64,000 nt of DNA from Candidatus Pantoea soli (GTDB lineage: Bacteria > Pseudomonadota > Gammaproteobacteria > Enterobacterales > Enterobacteriaceae). A program made the translations under genes and the position numbers. Position 1 is the stretch's first letter; each line of letters opens with the position of its first letter. The stretch covers positions 2,976,001 through 3,040,000 of the forward strand of contig NZ_CP032702.1 in the NCBI RefSeq assembly GCF_007833795.1, written 5' to 3'. The notes under the pieces were generated by a model. The model was not told where the DNA came from and made no database searches. It saw only the letters and a list, made by a program, of their open reading frames with translations. Below are positions 3,801 to 42,231 of the stretch, in pieces.

Positions 3801-3994
3801 GAGGTTACCGAGGAGGCCATCACATCCGGACTGGCGCCAGGATAGAGCGTGGTGACCTGAATGGTCGGGTAATCTACCTGCGGCAGCGCTGAGGTGGAGA
3901 GAAAGTGCCAGGCAAAGAGGCCGGCGATCAGCACGCCCGCCATCAGCAGAAGCGTGGCAACCGGACGCAGGATAAACAGGCGTGACGGATTCAT
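845..3994 (-). CDS. mdtB: MdtB, RND multidrug efflux pump subunit
   Basis: 1049-residue RND transporter (E. coli MdtB is 1040), the second inner-membrane subunit of the MdtABC-TolC pump. In E. coli this pump exports novobiocin, bile salts and other amphiphiles. Visible features: N-terminal helix after MNPSRLF, large periplasmic loops, and the central membrane block with the conserved [14 protein letters not shown] stretch that carries the proton-relay aspartates. The C-terminal tail is rich in Gln/Arg. It overlaps mdtA upstream (ATGA, 3991-3994) and mdtC downstream (ATGA, 845-848), giving a tightly coupled operon mdtA-mdtB-mdtC. There is a Ser/Gly/Thr-rich low-complexity insert in the second periplasmic loop (around + strand 1620-1670). 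Confidence 0.95.
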
Positions 3995-5193
3995 GATTTC
4001 GCCGCCGTCTCAGCCAGCTGAACATGGCTGCCGGTGGTGAGGCGATCGATTCCCTCGGTCACCAGCCGTTCGCCCGGCACCACCCCGCGCAGAATCGCCT
4101 GCCCGCTGTCACCGAAGGCCGGTCCGGTAGTGACCGCTCTGCGGGTGACGGTATTGTCCGGGTTGATCACAAACACAAAGCTGCCGTCGCTGCTGAGCTG
4201 CAGCGCCTGAGCCGGAATTACCGTGGCGTTTTTCAGCGTGGCAACCTGCACCCGCAGATTGACAAACTGATTCGCGAACAGCGCCTCATCCTGGTTGGCG
4301 AAGGTGGCTTTCAGCGTCACCGTGCCGGTGCTGGTGTCAATCTGGTTGCTGATATACTTCACCTCGCCCTGCGCCAGCACCGTGCGGTTGTCCTCATCCA
4401 GCGCCACGGCTGGCAGCGTCTGGCCGCTGCGCAGCGCCCGGGTAAGCTGGGGAATCGTGCTCTGTGGCACGCTGAAGGTCACCGCCGCTGGCTGCATCTG
4501 CGTCACCACCACAATGCCGGTGGTGTCGCTGGTTTGCACCATGTTGCCGGGATCCACCAGCCGCAGCCCGACGCGTCCGCCGATCGGCGCGGTGATACGC
4601 GCATAGTCAATATTCAGCTTCGCACTGGCAATCTGGGCTTCATCGGCGGCTACCGCGCCTTTGTACTGGCCCACGGTGGCGATTTGCGTATCGAGATCCT
4701 GGCGCGACAGGGAATCCTGCGCGGCCAGTTTCTGATAACGCGCCAGCGTCAGTTCGGCACTCTTCAGCAGCGCCTGGTTCTGCTGCAACTCGCCCTGATA
4801 CTGCGCCAGTGTCGCCTGATAGCTGCGCGGATCAATCTGCGCCAGCAGCTGCCCTGCGCTCACTTTTTGTCCTTCCGTGAAGAAGACCTTTTCCAGCTGG
4901 CCGGCCACGCGGCTGGTCACGGTCACGCTGGCACCGGGGATCACCGTGCCGGGTGCCTGCAGGTACTGCGGCACGTCGGCGCGGGTGGCCACGCCGCTGT
5001 GCACCAGCGTTGCCGTGCTGGCGGCATGCGCCCTGCCCGGCGGTCCGCCGGCAGGCTCTCCATCGGGTTTTCCATCCGGTGGCTGGCCGCCGGCTACGCG
5101 CCAGATCGCGCCCGCCAGCAGTATGATTACCAGTAACAGCAGCAGCCATTTCAGCCAGCGGGAAAAACCAGAGCGGGGAGTATGGGTTGTCAT
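3991..5193 (-). CDS. mdtA: MdtA, periplasmic adaptor (membrane fusion protein) of the MdtABC pump
   Basis: 400-residue membrane fusion protein; E. coli MdtA is about 415. It starts with a basic stretch, one hydrophobic helix (about residues 15-32), then a Gly/Pro/Asp-rich low-complexity segment (about 36-52). The lipoyl/beta-barrel adaptor fold follows ([20 protein letters not shown] and a matching C-terminal half). It links the MdtB/C trimer to TolC. First gene of mdtABC. In E. coli the operon answers to the BaeSR envelope-stress system; I could not identify a convincing BaeR box in the 330 bases upstream. The Shine-Dalgarno is weak (GAAG). Confidence 0.93.
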
Positions 5194-5523: not shown

Positions 5524-5634
5524 AAAAAAAAACCCACGCATCCGCGTGGGTCGGTGCAACCGAACAGGGTGAATACCTGAAGCCAGGTATTGCTGCCGCA
5601 GCAGCCGATCTTCACACCAATTAATACCTCTGGG
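5524..5634 (-). ncRNA. omrA: OmrA/OmrB-family small RNA (copy 1)
   Basis: On the minus strand the transcript would begin at 5634 with CCCAGAGGTATTAATTGG, which matches the 5' seed shared by E. coli OmrA and OmrB (CCCAGAGGTATTGAT). It ends with a terminator hairpin (5531-5551, ACCCACGC-GGAT-GCGTGGGT) and nine U. Length is about 111 nt, longer than E. coli OmrA (88). The extra length is a central hairpin-forming stretch around 5573-5602. Known role of the family: Hfq-dependent repression of outer-membrane receptors, ompT, csgD and ompR by the 5' end. In E. coli omrA and omrB lie in tandem just upstream of galR, as here except for the inserted genes. Which copy is omrA and which is omrB is not resolved. 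Confidence 0.88.
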
Positions 5635-5671
5635 ACCTTCATCCTCGCGCAAAGGCCGCGGCGATAACAGG

Positions 5672-5704
5672 GGCAAAACGCAACGGAGTTCGGCGAAATG
5701 CAAC
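5672..5704 (-). promoter_or_regulatory. Tandem OmpR-like sites in the promoter of omr copy 1
   Basis: Reading the minus strand, GTTGCATTTCGCC (5704-5692) is followed 20 nt later by GTTGCGTTTTGCC (5684-5672), at about -70 and -50 from the predicted start at 5634. A -10 like GAGGAT sits at 5646-5641. The same arrangement occurs before copy 2. In E. coli both omr genes are activated by OmpR; assigning these repeats to OmpR is inference. Confidence 0.6.
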
Positions 5705-5746
5705 GAGGTGTGAAAAGCGCGACTGTCTGTTTACATCCTGATTTTA

Positions 5747-7477
5747 TTAAGATTTATCTGAAGCTGGCTTGCTGTAAATGGCGTCAGGCGCAATGTTCAT
5801 GTGCTTCAGCACCGGCCCCATAATGTTGCCAAACACCGGTGCCGCCACCGATCCACCAAAGTGATCGCCGGCCGTCGGATGGTTGATCATCACCACCAGC
5901 GCCACTTCCGGATGGCTGGCAGGCGCGATGCCGGCCGTGTAGTTGACGTAGCCGCCATCATACTTGCCGCTGCTGCCCATCTTTTCCGCGGTACCGGTTT
6001 TGGTGGCCAGACGGTAGCCCGGCACGGCGGCTTTCACCCCGGTTCCGCCCGGCAGTACGTCGCTTTCCAGCATGTGCACTACCGTCTGGACGATTTGCGG
6101 ATCGGCCACCTGTTTACCCAGCACCGGCGGTGTCACTTTGGTGATCGACAGCGGGCGGTAAACGCCGTACGCGCCCAGCGTGGCGTATTCACGCGCAATC
6201 TGCAGCGGCGTCACGCGCAGTCCATAACCAAACGAGAAGGTGGCGCGTTCAATGTCCGCCCAGCGCTCGCGATGCAGCGGGAAGTAGCCGACGCTCTCGC
6301 CGGTCAGTCCCAGCCCGGTGGGTTTACCCAGACCAAACGCATGATAGGTGTTCACCAGCGCTTCTGCCGGCATCGCCAGCGCAATGTGTGAAACGCCGAT
6401 GTCGCTCGATTTCTGCAAAATGCCGGTCATGGTCAGACGCGGCCAGTGACCGACGTCGCGGATCAGGTGGCCGTTAACGCTGTAAGGCGTGGTGTCGATT
6501 ACCGAATCGGCGCGCACCAGGTGGCGCTGCAGCCCTTCCATCACCACCAGCGGCTTCACCGTTGAGCCGGGCTCATAGCTGTCGTTGATGGCGGTATTGC
6601 GCATCTGCGCAGGCGTGGCGTTATCGTAATTGTTCGGGTTAAACGAGGGATAAGAGGCCATCGCCAGGATTTCGCCGGTGTCAATTTTCACCAGCACCGC
6701 TGCACCGGAATCGGCTTTGTTCAGCAACACGCCGTCGCGCAGTTTGCTGTAGAGCGTGAACTGATCGAACTTGTCGATGCTGAGCTGCACGGTCGGCGGC
6801 TGCTTTGGCGGCTCGTAATCGATCATGGCAATGATATTGCCGTCACCGTCCTGACGATACACCTCTTTGCCCGGCTCGCCCTGCAGCACGTGATCAAAGC
6901 CCTTTTCCAGCCCGTTGAGGCCGTTATTGTCCGCACCAACGATACCAATCAGCGGCGCCGCGGCTTCACTCATCGGGTAGAAGCGGCTGTCGTCATAGAC
7001 CGAGCTGATGCCTTTCAGATGCAGTTCGGCAATATCTTTCGCGATGCCAAGCTCGATCTTGCGCCCGAGATAGAGAAAGCGCTTTTTCGGGTTGGCGGTG
7101 ATCTGCGCGCGCAGCTCTTCCGGGCGCAGGTTGAGCGCGGCGGCAAGGTAGTTCCATTTCGCGCTGCTGAAATCGGGGTTAGCCTCCAGCACGCGCAGCG
7201 GGTCGGCAATGATATCGCGCGACGGCACGCTGAGCGCCAGTGCCTGACCATCGCGATCCAGCAGCGTGCCGCGATTGGTCGGCAGCGTTACGGTGCGCAG
7301 CGAGCGCTGATCCGCCTCGTGCTCCAGCATCGGATGGTTGATCAACTGCAAATCGCCGACGCGCGCCAGCAGCAGGCCCATACAGCCTAATACGCCGAGG
7401 CAAATCAGACGGAAACGAAACGGGTTAAACGGGGCTTTAATCTGGTCTTTTCCCAGAAATTTTTTAATCGGGGGCAT
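5747..7477 (-). CDS. PBP3/FtsI-family peptidoglycan transpeptidase paralogue
   Basis: 576 residues from the MPPIKKF start; an upstream in-frame ATG at 7561 would add 28 residues that have no counterpart in FtsI. One N-terminal membrane helix (about 21-39), a class B PBP pedestal with RGTLLDRDG (about 69-77), then the transpeptidase domain. Active-site motifs: SxxK as STVK (305-308), KTG (493-495), and SSD (357-359) where E. coli FtsI has SSN. It looks like a second PBP3 and not the division-cluster ftsI, because no mra/mur genes are adjacent. Salmonella carries a comparable second PBP3 (PBP3SAL) used in acid; whether this is its orthologue is not known. It lies between the two omr sRNA genes. 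Confidence 0.85.
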   Translation of the reverse strand: MPPIKKFLGKDQIKAPFNPFRFRLICLGVLGCMGLLLARVGDLQLINHPMLEHEADQRSLRTVTLPTNRGTLLDRDGQALALSVPSRDIIADPLRVLEANPDFSSAKWNYLAAALNLRPEELRAQITANPKKRFLYLGRKIELGIAKDIAELHLKGISSVYDDSRFYPMSEAAAPLIGIVGADNNGLNGLEKGFDHVLQGEPGKEVYRQDGDGNIIAMIDYEPPKQPPTVQLSIDKFDQFTLYSKLRDGVLLNKADSGAAVLVKIDTGEILAMASYPSFNPNNYDNATPAQMRNTAINDSYEPGSTVKPLVVMEGLQRHLVRADSVIDTTPYSVNGHLIRDVGHWPRLTMTGILQKSSDIGVSHIALAMPAEALVNTYHAFGLGKPTGLGLTGESVGYFPLHRERWADIERATFSFGYGLRVTPLQIAREYATLGAYGVYRPLSITKVTPPVLGKQVADPQIVQTVVHMLESDVLPGGTGVKAAVPGYRLATKTGTAEKMGSSGKYDGGYVNYTAGIAPASHPEVALVVMINHPTAGDHFGGSVAAPVFGNIMGPVLKHMNIAPDAIYSKPASDKS

Positions 7478-7590
7478 AGCAATCCGCTGCGATAAAAGGT
7501 GAGTCCGGAACGCAATCCATGCAGTTATAAAGAAAGGCGCGCAGGGATGACAGGAAAACAATGTTTCGATTCGTTATCGACACCGCAGGC

Positions 7591-7665
7591 AAAAAAAACC
7601 TGCGCATCTGCGCAGGTCGGTGTAATCAAGAAACGTTTTGATGTTCACCCATCAATACCTCTGGG
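7591..7665 (-). ncRNA. omrB: OmrA/OmrB-family small RNA (copy 2)
   Basis: On the minus strand it starts at 7665 with CCCAGAGGTATTGATGGGTG, identical over the first 15 bases to E. coli OmrA/B. It ends in the terminator CCTGCGCA-GA-TGCGCAGG plus eight U (7591-7617), which is nearly the E. coli OmrB terminator. Length about 75 nt. A TACAGT -10 hexamer lies at 7677-7672. The middle third differs from copy 1, as E. coli OmrA and OmrB differ from each other, so the pair shares seed and terminator only. It is transcribed towards the PBP3 paralogue, with its terminator before that gene. Confidence 0.9.
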
Positions 7666-7707
7666 ACCCTGACTGTAGCAATCTGCTGCCGGGCGAAACT
7701 ATCACTC

Positions 7708-7736
7708 AAACGCAACAGTTACCGGCAAAATGTAAC
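7708..7736 (-). promoter_or_regulatory. Tandem OmpR-like sites in the promoter of omr copy 2
   Basis: Minus-strand GTTACATTTTGCC (7736-7724) followed 20 nt later by GTTGCGTTT (7716-7708), at about -71 and -51 from the predicted sRNA start. The first element resembles the OmpR consensus (TTTACATTTTG). Sequence and spacing match the copy 1 promoter although the flanking DNA differs, which suggests selection. Confidence 0.62.
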
Positions 7737-7750
7737 CAGCGGTGAGATTG

Positions 7751-10024
7751 TTAGCCGATTGTGCAACTGACGTGTTTTTTGATTTCCACCAGGCAGCTCA
7801 TGGCATTCGGTCCCTGCGTTAATGAGGAGGTCCCGATGTCGAGCGTCAGCACGTTCGGGTTACCGGCGCGATCCCACGGCAGCCACGCGCCGCCAAAGCC
7901 AGGATCAAACCAGGCACCGGTTGCCACGATCACCACGCCCGGCGTCAGGCCGTCGGTCAGGCGCACGCCCGCCAGCATCCGCCCGCGCGCGTTGCTGACT
8001 TCAATTTCATCACCGTCACTAATGCCGCGTGCGGCAGCATCGTGCGGGTGCATATAGAGCGTTTCATGGCCGGCGGTTTTGCCAGCCTGAACCTGCGGCG
8101 TGCTGTCCAGCTGGCTGTGCAGGCGATCGGCAGGCTGCACCGAAATCATATGCAGAGGATAGGTGCGGCTGAGCGGCGCGCCCAGCCACTCCTGCGGCTC
8201 GCGCCACTCCGGATGCCCGGCAAAATCCGCCAGCTGGAAATCCGCGATGGTCTGGCAGAACAGCTCGATTTTGCCGCTGGCGGTCTGAATGGGATGGCTG
8301 ACCGGATCGGCGCGGAACGCCGCCATATCCACAAACGGCTTGCCGCCCGGCGGGATCTCCACGTAACCGCGCTGCCAGAATTCGTCAAACGCCGGAAATT
8401 CAATGCCGCGTTGCGCATGCGCATGCGCGCACTGCTGATACAGATGCGCGATCCACTGCATCTCGTTGCGCCCTTCGGTGAAGCGATCCCGGTAGCCGAG
8501 GCGGTCAGCGATATCGGCAAAAATGTCGAAATCGTTGCGGGCCTGGTGCTGCGGCCGCACGGCCTGATGCATCGCCAGCACGAAACGGTCGCGCGAGGAG
8601 CCGCCAATGTCGTTACGTTCCAGCGTGGTGGTGGCGGGCAGGACAATGTCCGCCATCTGCGCGGCGGGCGTCCAGACAATGTCCTGCACAATCACCGTAT
8701 CTGGTCGCTGCCAGCCCGCGACCAGCCGGTTAAGCTGCTGATGGTGATGGAACGGATTACCGCCCGCCCAGTGCACCAGATGGATATCCGGGTAGTGTCG
8801 CGTTTCGCCCTGGAAGCGGTAGGGTTGCCCCGGATTAAGCAGCATGTCGCTGATGCGCGCCACCGGAATAGCCAGCCCGGCCGGATTGGGCCCGGTGCTC
8901 ATCATCGGGGCCGGCCCTTCCTGCCGCGGGTTGCCCACGCTGTTCATCGAGCCGTGACCAAACGAGAAGCCGCCGCCCGGCAGCCCAGGCTGGCCGAGCA
9001 TGGCTGAGAGCGCAATCATCATCCAGTAGGGCTGCTCGCCGCGATGCGCGCGCTGCACCGCATAGGCGCAGGTGATAAAGCTGCGTTTACCGATCAGCTG
9101 TCCGGCCAGTTGGGCAATACGCGCGGCCGGAATGCCGGTAATCGCGCTGGCCCACGCCGGCGTTTTGGCGATGCCATCGCTTTCACCCAGCAGGTAGCGG
9201 CGCAGCTGCGGCCAGCCGGTGCAGTGGCTGGCAAGGAACGCCTCATCCACGGCATCGCGCCGGGCGATCTCGTAGCCCAGCGCCAGCATCAGCGCGACAT
9301 CGGTATTCGGCCGGATAGGGATCCATTCGGCGTTGACAAAGTCCGGGCAGTCGTCCCGCATCGGGCTGATATTGATCACCGTCGTGCCTCTGGCGCGCAG
9401 CTGCTCCAGCGCCGGGCGCAGGCTGTGTTCGCCGGCGCCGCCCGACGCCACCTGGGCGTTTTTCAGCGCCAGACCGCCAAAGGCGATAAAGATGTCGGCA
9501 TGCTCCACCACCGACGGCCAGTCAGTCACGCGGCCGGTGAGCGGCATCCAGCTGCCGATGACGTACGGCAGAAAGAACTGCGCCGCCCCCCAGCTGTAGT
9601 TGCCCTGCTGATCGACGCCACCGCCGCCCTGAAAGTAGAAGCGGCGGATCAGGGTGCGGGCATGGTTAACGCGCCCGGCCGAGGACCAGCCGTAAGAGCC
9701 GTTGAAAATGCCGGCGGCGCCGTAGCGCTCACGCACGCGGCGGTTCTCGTCCGCCACCAGATCCAGCGCGGTTTCCCAGTCTACAGCGACAAAATCTTCA
9801 CGGCCGCGCAGCGTGCGGTCGCTGTTTTCGCGCGATTTCAGCCACGAGCGGCGCACCATCGGCTGGCGGATACGCCTGTCGGAGTACACCAGCTGCGGCA
9901 CGGTATGAATCATCGGGGAAGGATCGCGATCGGCAAAGAAAGGTTCGCAGGCAATCAGACGGCCGTTTTCGGTGACGGCGGTAAAGGCGCCCCAGTGCGC
10001 AAGGTGTGGCACACGTTTTTTCAT
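7751..10024 (-). CDS. BisC-like molybdopterin S/N-oxide reductase
   Basis: 757 residues from MKKRVPH; an ATG 16 codons upstream is less likely. DMSO reductase family: the GSYGW motif near residue 110 contains the serine expected to bind molybdenum, followed by the central catalytic domains and a C-terminal molybdopterin dinucleotide-binding domain (from about 630). There is no Tat signal and no N-terminal [4Fe-4S] cysteine set, so it should be cytoplasmic like E. coli BisC (777 aa), which reduces biotin sulfoxide and methionine sulfoxide. The sequence diverges clearly from BisC after GSYGW, so the substrate is uncertain. It has no membrane-anchor or cytochrome partner next to it and stands alone between omr copy 2 and galR. 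Confidence 0.8.
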   Translation of the reverse strand: MKKRVPHLAHWGAFTAVTENGRLIACEPFFADRDPSPMIHTVPQLVYSDRRIRQPMVRRSWLKSRENSDRTLRGREDFVAVDWETALDLVADENRRVRERYGAAGIFNGSYGWSSAGRVNHARTLIRRFYFQGGGGVDQQGNYSWGAAQFFLPYVIGSWMPLTGRVTDWPSVVEHADIFIAFGGLALKNAQVASGGAGEHSLRPALEQLRARGTTVINISPMRDDCPDFVNAEWIPIRPNTDVALMLALGYEIARRDAVDEAFLASHCTGWPQLRRYLLGESDGIAKTPAWASAITGIPAARIAQLAGQLIGKRSFITCAYAVQRAHRGEQPYWMMIALSAMLGQPGLPGGGFSFGHGSMNSVGNPRQEGPAPMMSTGPNPAGLAIPVARISDMLLNPGQPYRFQGETRHYPDIHLVHWAGGNPFHHHQQLNRLVAGWQRPDTVIVQDIVWTPAAQMADIVLPATTTLERNDIGGSSRDRFVLAMHQAVRPQHQARNDFDIFADIADRLGYRDRFTEGRNEMQWIAHLYQQCAHAHAQRGIEFPAFDEFWQRGYVEIPPGGKPFVDMAAFRADPVSHPIQTASGKIELFCQTIADFQLADFAGHPEWREPQEWLGAPLSRTYPLHMISVQPADRLHSQLDSTPQVQAGKTAGHETLYMHPHDAAARGISDGDEIEVSNARGRMLAGVRLTDGLTPGVVIVATGAWFDPGFGGAWLPWDRAGNPNVLTLDIGTSSLTQGPNAMSCLVEIKKHVSCTIG

Positions 10025-10186
10025 GCGGTGGTATCCGGCAGGCAGCAAGAGACAGGCCTGCCAGCATAGCATGCCCGGTCGCGCGCACTAAAGTGTGGCG
10101 ACATGGCTGAATTTCCCCGCTTTTGCGACAGCGCTGGCATTCTGCCGGGTTGCGGCCCCGGGGCTTTTCCGTAACACTGGTGGCAT

Positions 10187-10202
10187 GTGTAAACGTTTTC
10201 CC
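10187..10202. promoter_or_regulatory. Candidate GalR operator
   Basis: GTGTAAACGTTTTCCC matches the gal operator consensus GTGNAANCGNTTNCAC at 11 of the 12 fixed positions. It lies 17-32 bases upstream of the galR ATG, where bound repressor would block transcription or the ribosome site. GalR is known to repress its own gene in E. coli. Confidence 0.65.
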
Positions 10203-10218
10203 GGATGTCGGTAATTGC

Positions 10219-11220
10219 ATGGCTACCATTAAGGATGTTGCTCGCCTCGCCGGGGTTTCGGTCGCGACCGTTTCCCGCGTCATCAACCACTCACCCAAAG
10301 CCAGCGAGAGCTCCCGCCTCGCCGTAAACCAGGCCATGGAGCAGCTGCAGTATCACCCGAACGCCAATGCACGCGCGCTGGCGCAGCAATCCACCGAGAC
10401 GCTGGGACTGGTGGTGGGCGATGTTTCCGATCCGTTTTTCGGGGCCATGGTTAAGGCCGTGGATGAAGTGGCCGGGCAGACCGGCAACTTTCTGCTGATT
10501 GGTAACGGTTACCATAACGAGCAGAAAGAGCGTCAGGCCATTGAGCAGCTGATGCGCCACCGCTGTGCGGCGCTGGTGGTCCATGCCAAAAAAGTTCCGG
10601 ATGACGATCTGGAAGTGCTGATGAAGCAGGTGCCGGGCATGGTACTGCTGAATCGTCTGCTGAAAGGGTTTGAAGCGCGCTGCATTGCGCTGGATGACCG
10701 CTACGGTGCCTGGCTGGCCACGCGCCATCTGATCCAGCAGGGCCATACGCAGATTGGTTTTATCTGCTCTACGCACACCATTTCTGACGCTGAAGAGCGG
10801 CTGCAGGGCTATTACGATGCGCTGAAAGAGCACGGCCTGCCGAGTAACGACCGGCTGGTGGCCTGGGGTGAGCCCGATGAAGTGGGCGGCGAACAGGCGA
10901 TGACGGAGCTGCTGGGCCGCGGGAAACCGCTGAGCGCGGTGGCCTGCTACAACGATTCCATGGCCGCCGGTGCGCTGGCGGTGCTGAGCGATAACGGGGT
11001 CAACGTTCCGGAAGCGATGTCGCTGATCGGTTTTGATGATGTGCTGGTGTCACGCTATGTGCGGCCGCGGCTGACCACGGTGCGCTATCCGATTGTGACC
11101 ATGGCGCAGCAGGCCGCTCAGCTGGCGCTGGCGCTGGCAAACGGCACGCCGCTGCCGGAAGTGACCAATATGTTCAGTCCGACGCTGGTACGCCGTCATT
11201 CAGTCAGCGGTCCGGGGTAA
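10219..11220 (+). CDS. galR: GalR, galactose-operon transcriptional repressor
   Basis: 333-residue LacI-family repressor, E. coli length 343. The N-terminal LacI helix-turn-helix reads MATIKDVARLAGVSVATVSR, followed by the hinge and the periplasmic-binding-like sugar domain, with DVSDPFFGAMVKAV and NGYHNEQKERQAIEQL as in E. coli GalR. The start at 10219 gives the family N-terminus; an in-frame ATG at 10123 would add 32 unrelated residues. It binds D-galactose and controls gal genes. Position beside lysA/lysR and next to omr sRNAs matches E. coli synteny. A GalR-type operator sits just upstream, implying autorepression. Convergent with the GNAT gene, 40 bases apart. Confidence 0.93.
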   Translation: MATIKDVARLAGVSVATVSRVINHSPKASESSRLAVNQAMEQLQYHPNANARALAQQSTETLGLVVGDVSDPFFGAMVKAVDEVAGQTGNFLLIGNGYHNEQKERQAIEQLMRHRCAALVVHAKKVPDDDLEVLMKQVPGMVLLNRLLKGFEARCIALDDRYGAWLATRHLIQQGHTQIGFICSTHTISDAEERLQGYYDALKEHGLPSNDRLVAWGEPDEVGGEQAMTELLGRGKPLSAVACYNDSMAAGALAVLSDNGVNVPEAMSLIGFDDVLVSRYVRPRLTTVRYPIVTMAQQAAQLALALANGTPLPEVTNMFSPTLVRRHSVSGPG

Positions 11221-42045: not shown

Positions 42046-42231
42046 ATTTTCTCTGAGATGTTTGCAAGCGGGCCAGTCCCCTGAGCCGATATTTCATACC
42101 AACAGAGTGTGACGCTCTGTAGCCTGTGAGCATGCTCGGTCCGTCCGAGAAGCCTGATGGTTACGACGGCATACTCACCTTGAACCAAGGGTTCAAGGGT
42201 TACAGCCTGCGGCGGCATCTCGGAGATCTCC
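42046..42231 (+). ncRNA. ssrS: 6S RNA
   Basis: About 185 nt, nearly identical in its conserved blocks to E. coli 6S RNA: TCTCTGAGATGTT at the 5' side pairs with GGCATCTCGGAGA at the 3' side. CAAGCGGGCCAGTCCCCTGAG, CATGCTCGGTCCGTCCGAG and CACCTTGAACCAAGGGTTCA are all present. It mimics an open promoter and binds sigma-70 RNA polymerase in stationary phase. Located between zapA and ygfA as in all enterics. Confidence 0.97.

Follow-up and report, generated by a model that had tools for sequence, protein, structure and literature searches.

In Escherichia coli, the sRNA genes omrB and omrA lie side by side, in the order galR, omrB, omrA, aas. In the 64,000-nucleotide stretch of the Candidatus Pantoea soli genome analyzed here, hereafter the window, a gene for a penicillin-binding protein (PBP) lies between two genes of this type. 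The arrangement raises the question of whether the PBP shares the transcription signals of the sRNAs or is simply their neighbor. An earlier note, made from the sequence alone, had described the locus as an OmrA/OmrB pair that is adjacent in E. coli and is split here by a PBP3-family gene. It had further claimed a 5′ seed and a strong terminator in both sRNAs, duplicated OmpR-like promoters, and an association with mdtABC.

Results

Identity of the sRNA pair

The window was searched using the Rfam OmrA-B covariance model (RF00079). Both copies exceeded the gathering score of 40 (Table 1), and the 4.63 Mb of the organism's own genome contained these two matches in all, with no third. Both sRNAs start with CCCAGAGGTATT and terminate in a G+C-rich hairpin followed by a T run. 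They thus carry the conserved 5′ end and the Rho-independent terminator of the family, with predicted OmpR-type boxes upstream that match those of E. coli by sequence. A generic terminator scan alone returned 3 sites versus a shuffle mean of 3.0; because this was no excess, weight was placed on the covariance model. A consensus scan of the window, too blunt for this purpose, found no sigma-70-like promoter. Overall, the earlier description of the pair, its seeds and terminators, its interruption by the PBP gene, and the adjacency of the two genes in E. coli was borne out.

Table 1. Positions of the features discussed, numbered from the first nucleotide of the window.
Feature	Position	Strand	Basis
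omrB-type sRNA, 75 nt, with terminator 1	7665-7591	-	RF00079, 74.0 bits, E 2.1e-12 (cmscan)
Two OmpR-type elements 20 nt apart, omrB promoter	7707..7736	-	sequence likeness to E. coli omrB
Conserved PBP promoter block, window form GAATCGAAACATTGTTTTCCTGTCA	7548..7572	-	5/25 mismatches to consensus
TATAAC, likely -10 of the PBP promoter	7524..7529	-	sequence
PBP3 (FtsI) paralogue, 576 aa, STVKP / SSD / KTG	7477 (ATG) to 5747 (stop)	-	
Two OmpR-type elements 20 nt apart, omrA promoter	5675..5704	-	sequence likeness to E. coli omrA
omrA-type sRNA, 110 nt	5634-5525	-	RF00079, 65.6 bits, E 2.4e-10 (cmscan)
omrA terminator	5552-5525	-	
MdtA-family adaptor gene	3991-5193		
6S RNA	42047-42230	+	RF00013, 130.4 bits

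The window and E. coli have the family score, the 5′ seed, the terminator, and the galR-omrB-omrA order on one strand in common. They differ in that E. coli lacks a 576-aa PBP gene between omrB and omrA, and in the length of the omrA-type RNA, which is 110 nt in the window versus 88 in E. coli. The omrAB sRNAs of E. amylovora and P. ananatis belong to the same family. In E. amylovora, the reported orientation of the neighbors (< < >) is consistent with an sRNA that precedes a gene on the same strand (PMC4070566), and in P. ananatis the sRNAs are reported to be Hfq-dependent (PMC6749038); the available excerpts of these two papers mention neither a PBP nor a split pair in connection with omrAB. 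An additional hairpin, AATACCTGGCTTCAGGTATT, occurs in the 110-nt OmrA-type RNA and duplicates a portion of the seed; neither P. ananatis L101 nor P. agglomerans L100 showed it. A 6S RNA gene also lies in the window (Table 1).

The omr promoters

On the minus strand, the omrB promoter elements are GTTACATTTTGCC from position 7736 and GTTGCGTTT from 7716; those of omrA are GTTGCATTTCGCC from 5704 and GTTGCGTTTT from 5684. The E. coli omrB and omrA promoters carry the same two elements, also 20 nt apart. The paired elements are therefore inherited and are not special to the window. The promoters of the two organisms also match copy by copy. Specifically, the galR-side promoter of the window aligned with a score of 18 to E. 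coli omrB versus 3 to omrA, and the other promoter with a score of 20 to omrA versus 6 to omrB. The window's two promoters scored 5 against each other and E. coli's two scored 3. Thus, the duplication and the spacing predate the split, and the galR-side copy is, by promoter sequence and position, omrB, and the other copy omrA. The duplicated OmpR-type architecture was correctly noticed, but the likeness of the two promoters is that of an inherited, E. coli-type pair.

The spacing is maintained among relatives. On the omrB side, the GTTAC/GTTGC pair was found 20 nt apart at -71 in 94/97 promoters (72 distinct). On the omrA side, anchors matched with at most 2 mismatches each had one constant spacing in 42/44 promoters (40 distinct). 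In E. coli, OmpR directly activates both omrA and omrB, according to a review (PMC12692685).

The PBP3 paralogue between the sRNAs

The intervening gene encodes a class B PBP with 51-53% identity to FtsI (52-53% to the organism's own FtsI; 52% to L215, 51.5% to L216) and 98% identity to the PBP of P. dispersa. It scored 678.6 bits against the FtsI subfamily model PRK15105 (NF011685), below the curated cut-off of 737; the solved structures that match it by sequence are FtsI/PBP3. A tree of 67 rows resolved FtsI, a clade B having 60-70% identity to FtsI, and a clade A, including the window PBP, having 48-56%. Clades A and B joined at 98/94, apart from FtsI, in a tree containing 16 of 29 FtsI outgroups; the alternative of clade B together with FtsI was not firmly rejected (p-AU 0.068). 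All 60 paralogues of the alignment have SSD, versus SSN in 7/7 FtsI. Among the outgroup FtsI, SSN occurred in 27/29, and the other two gave no match to the pattern used. The motif is already given as SXN/D in the Salmonella PBP3SAL paper (PMC5736910); the literature searched included none that joins the SXN motif, penicillin-binding protein, aspartate, and acidic pH.

PBP3SAL of Salmonella and PBP3PARA (ftsI2) of Klebsiella are, like the window PBP, a second PBP3 beside FtsI with SSD in place of SSN, and they represent its sister clade. Clade B was equated with PBP3SAL based on identity and on the locus of the two members checked: L199 and L203 adjoin genes like E. coli yobF, cspE, yobH, and yebO, and PBP3SAL is described as lying between rrmA and cspC in Salmonella (PMC5736910). 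The window PBP differs in three respects. Its identity to FtsI is lower than the 61-63% published for PBP3SAL/PBP3PARA (PMC13251458, PMC5736910), it falls in clade A, and it is placed between omrB and omrA rather than at the rrmA-cspC locus. Orthology with PBP3SAL/PBP3PARA was thus rejected; by identity, tree, and locus, the protein is a sister line of PBP3SAL.

Spread of the arrangement

The locus was compared among relatives, as the earlier note had proposed for the Erwiniaceae. Within the genus, 59/61 genomes have Omr, with two matches in 55/61, and 56/61 have the PBP (E 1e-190 or better). Genomes G420, G434, and G444 have Omr with no PBP match at this threshold. The PBP has Omr on both sides within 600 nt in 53/59 genus loci; 3 others have Omr upstream only and 3 have neither. 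The latter are second PBP copies of clade-A type, with 83% identity, situated on other contigs of three genomes (G403:C3, G404:C2, and G438:C19) and lacking Omr within 600 nt. In 60 named loci, the Omr seed (at most 1 mismatch) precedes the PBP in 53 and follows it in 36, and on these counts the split arrangement is old. Among 75 full-length PBP loci above 79% identity, Omr flanks the PBP on both sides in 38, lies only upstream in 31, and is absent from 6.

The PBP sister lineage also occurs in named Erwinia, Mixta, Rosenbergiella, and Kosakonia, and in most relatives that have the PBP the gene is placed in the OmpR sRNA locus. Where other genera have two Omr copies, the spacing is approximately 200 nt in the examples G080 and G360. 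Two loci were unusual. In G417:C46:34424-45738, approximately 11 kb separates the two Omr matches; the match before the PBP is in place, and the other is displaced. A record titled Enterobacter cancerogenus M004 (L136) contains a Pantoea-type locus with 94% PBP identity; its title may be a misnomer.

The flanking genes are more variable. In the window, an MdtA-family adaptor gene lies beyond omrA, and a gene like S/N-oxide reductases (bisC_fam 939.1 bits, below the cut-off of 1017.55) lies upstream of omrB, followed by galR and lysA. No aas match was found in the window. Within the flanks examined, mdtA and aas each occurred in 15/60 named loci. Thus, the MdtA-family gene is where mdtABC had been noted, but mdtABC was rejected as a stable component of the locus. 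In Mixta L110, aas lies behind the PBP (8698-10839), as it does behind omrA in E. coli.

The terminator behind the PBP and omrA

On the minus strand of the window, no terminator-like site intervenes between the PBP stop codon and the omrA terminator, making the latter the first such site after the PBP. The corresponding hairpin, CCCACGC-n-GCGTGGG plus a T run, was found downstream in 37/38 two-copy loci. In 4/31 loci without omrA, namely P. rodasii L143, E. rhapontici L121, and E. persicina L124 and L127, it is retained 22-33 nt behind the PBP stop. E. piriflorinigrans L144, also without omrA, has a shorter form of the hairpin that the strict pattern missed, and in 26/31 such loci the terminator is not kept. 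The 2.68 Mb of strand sequence from these partly redundant loci contained no other occurrence of the pattern. Since P. rodasii belongs to a different lineage from the Erwinia loci, retention of the terminator without omrA probably happened at least twice.

A conserved PBP promoter block and its absence from Mixta

A conserved block, consensus GAACTGAAACACAGTTTTCCTGTTA, lies between the omrB terminator and the PBP. Counted with at most 6 mismatches, it is present in 67/75 loci, 65/67 of which have it 84-95 nt before the start codon, and it is followed by TATAAC (at most 1 mismatch) in 59/67. Shuffled upstream regions contained a match in 2/3750 cases, and the 21-base core with at most 3 mismatches occurs only at the window site in the organism's own genome. 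More distant paralogues and FtsI, represented by 52 upstream regions, yielded no match to the block. The block was kept in 5/6 loci without Omr, among them three named Kosakonia and L130, which matched only at 6 mismatches; it therefore belongs to the PBP. It has decayed in L132. The genome also has two PBP2-like genes, L005 (G000:C1:3122569-3124326) and L006 (G000:C1:1097129-1097956). Upstream of L005 lies CTGACACACTTTTGCC, which is faintly like the block, although the search with at most 6 mismatches gave no match there.

The block is missing from three Mixta loci (L110, L111, L113), two Mixta-type loci (L153, L154), [Erwinia] mediterraneensis L112, a metagenome-assembled genome (MAG) locus (L095), and L167, which has no Omr nearby. 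In the five Mixta-type loci, the three Mixta loci included, the T run of omrB ends 15-22 nt before the PBP start, a gap too short for a separate PBP promoter. The Mixta-type PBP nevertheless shows purifying selection, with dN/dS of 0.022-0.042 across four pairs (two of them identical in value), and the omrB terminator is unchanged in Mixta (dG -15.8, T8). Based on the absence of the block and the proximity of the T run to the start, transcription of the Mixta-type PBP probably relies on polymerase reading through the omrB terminator. The omrB promoter is the nearest to the PBP; transcription of the reductase gene, which in L110 lies upstream of omrB in the same direction as the PBP, could add to it. 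Transcripts from either source must pass the unchanged terminator, and read-through may be slight. Alternatively, a promoter inside omrB may serve the PBP.

Pairing of the sRNAs with neighboring genes

The earlier note had also suggested a search for seed complementarity near the starts of mdtA and the PBP. We compared crude duplex energies, which do not consider accessibility, in 52 rows in which mdtA and the PBP were each entered twice. The best window gene for the omrB 5′ end was mdtA, at -24.4 kcal/mol, and its start region contains CTCTGG, which a review gives as a motif of OmrA targets (PMC12692685). However, CTCTGG was found near only 2 of the 22 distinct mdtA starts listed, the window included; P. 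dispersa has TTCTGG. The PBP start ranked an unremarkable 14th for omrB and 9th for omrA. As a control we used ompR, known as a target elsewhere; it came 8th with the omrB 5′ end and 13th with the omrA 5′ end, and 36th and 37th using longer sRNA stretches, so the scan has little power. With the mdtA site not conserved and the PBP start unremarkable, base pairing of the sRNAs with these genes was rejected: that they control mdtA or the PBP at the start regions is highly improbable. Regulation in trans, which the earlier note had invited, is thus unsupported, and regulation in cis gained indirect support through the shared transcription signals. More broadly, the pair, its interruption, and the OmpR-type elements stood up to analysis; a stable mdtABC neighborhood and trans regulation did not.

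Discussion

The data suggest that the PBP shares transcription signals with the omr sRNAs. In the model that we favor, an OmpR-controlled omrB/omrA pair would have been inherited from the common ancestor with E. coli and split in an Erwiniaceae ancestor by a PBP3 paralogue carrying its own promoter. The predicted result is a one-strand series: omrB promoter, omrB, terminator 1, PBP promoter, PBP, omrA promoter, omrA, terminator 2. Terminator 2 would serve both the PBP mRNA and OmrA. Leakage through terminator 1 would let the OmpR-driven omrB promoter contribute to transcription of the PBP, and in Mixta, which lacks the block, this read-through would be the main source of PBP transcript. The PBP itself may work in the manner of PBP3SAL and Klebsiella PBP3PARA, as a substitute septal transpeptidase under acid or envelope stress. 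Support by analogy comes from these enzymes: genetic data link expression of ftsI2 at low pH to OmpR in Klebsiella, and the Salmonella PBP3 paralogues are stated to be under EnvZ/OmpR (PMC13251458). With an enzyme of the sister group between two OmpR-driven sRNAs, OmpR would raise the sRNAs and the PBP together, through read-through or the PBP's own promoter. We give this model as a whole about an even chance.

How the signals would be shared is a more tentative matter. One possibility, to which we give somewhat better than a one-in-three chance, is that omrB acts as a leader of the PBP: OmpR-driven transcripts would leak past the omrB terminator, and the PBP mRNA would end at the omrA terminator and may yield OmrA from its 3′ end. 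Slightly less probable is that the locus comprises three independent units, with the PBP transcribed from its own promoter and its position having no regulatory meaning. The promoter block, conserved even where Omr is not near, and the strong terminator after omrB are as expected from such independence, as is the loss of the omrA terminator from most loci without omrA. Against it, the PBP is under purifying selection in Mixta-type loci that lack the block, and P. rodasii and some Erwinia have retained the omrA terminator after the PBP. Less probable again, at roughly a quarter, is direct action of OmpR at the PBP's own block without read-through from omrB. Beside the likely -35 region, the block does contain GAAAC, which has the GxxxC form reported for elements of OmpR boxes (PMC10342277), and the OmpR dependence of Klebsiella ftsI2 in the genetic data (PMC13251458) would agree with such action; but inspection of the block's surroundings revealed no clear 10-bp element repeats like those of the omr promoters, and Mixta-type loci have no block at all.

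If omrB does act as a leader, one signal would set both the outer-membrane sRNA response and a septal enzyme, and read-through from omrB would be the sole route to the PBP in Mixta. These loci look like a natural promoter deletion and provide a direct test bed for transcription that runs past an sRNA terminator into a conserved gene.

The arrangement of Omr and the PBP was not found described in the literature searched, in which the available text of PMC10342277 covers Enterobacteriaceae, Yersiniaceae, and Pectobacteriaceae, and we found no literature joining OmrA, penicillin-binding protein, and Pantoea. This suggests familiar parts in a new wiring. According to earlier descriptions, PBP3SAL does not occur in non-pathogenic bacteria (PMC5736910), and only pathogens have so far been described to carry paralogous class B PBPs (PMC13251458). 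In contrast to these descriptions, the sister lineage of PBP3SAL is general in this Pantoea genus, occurring in 56/61 genomes.
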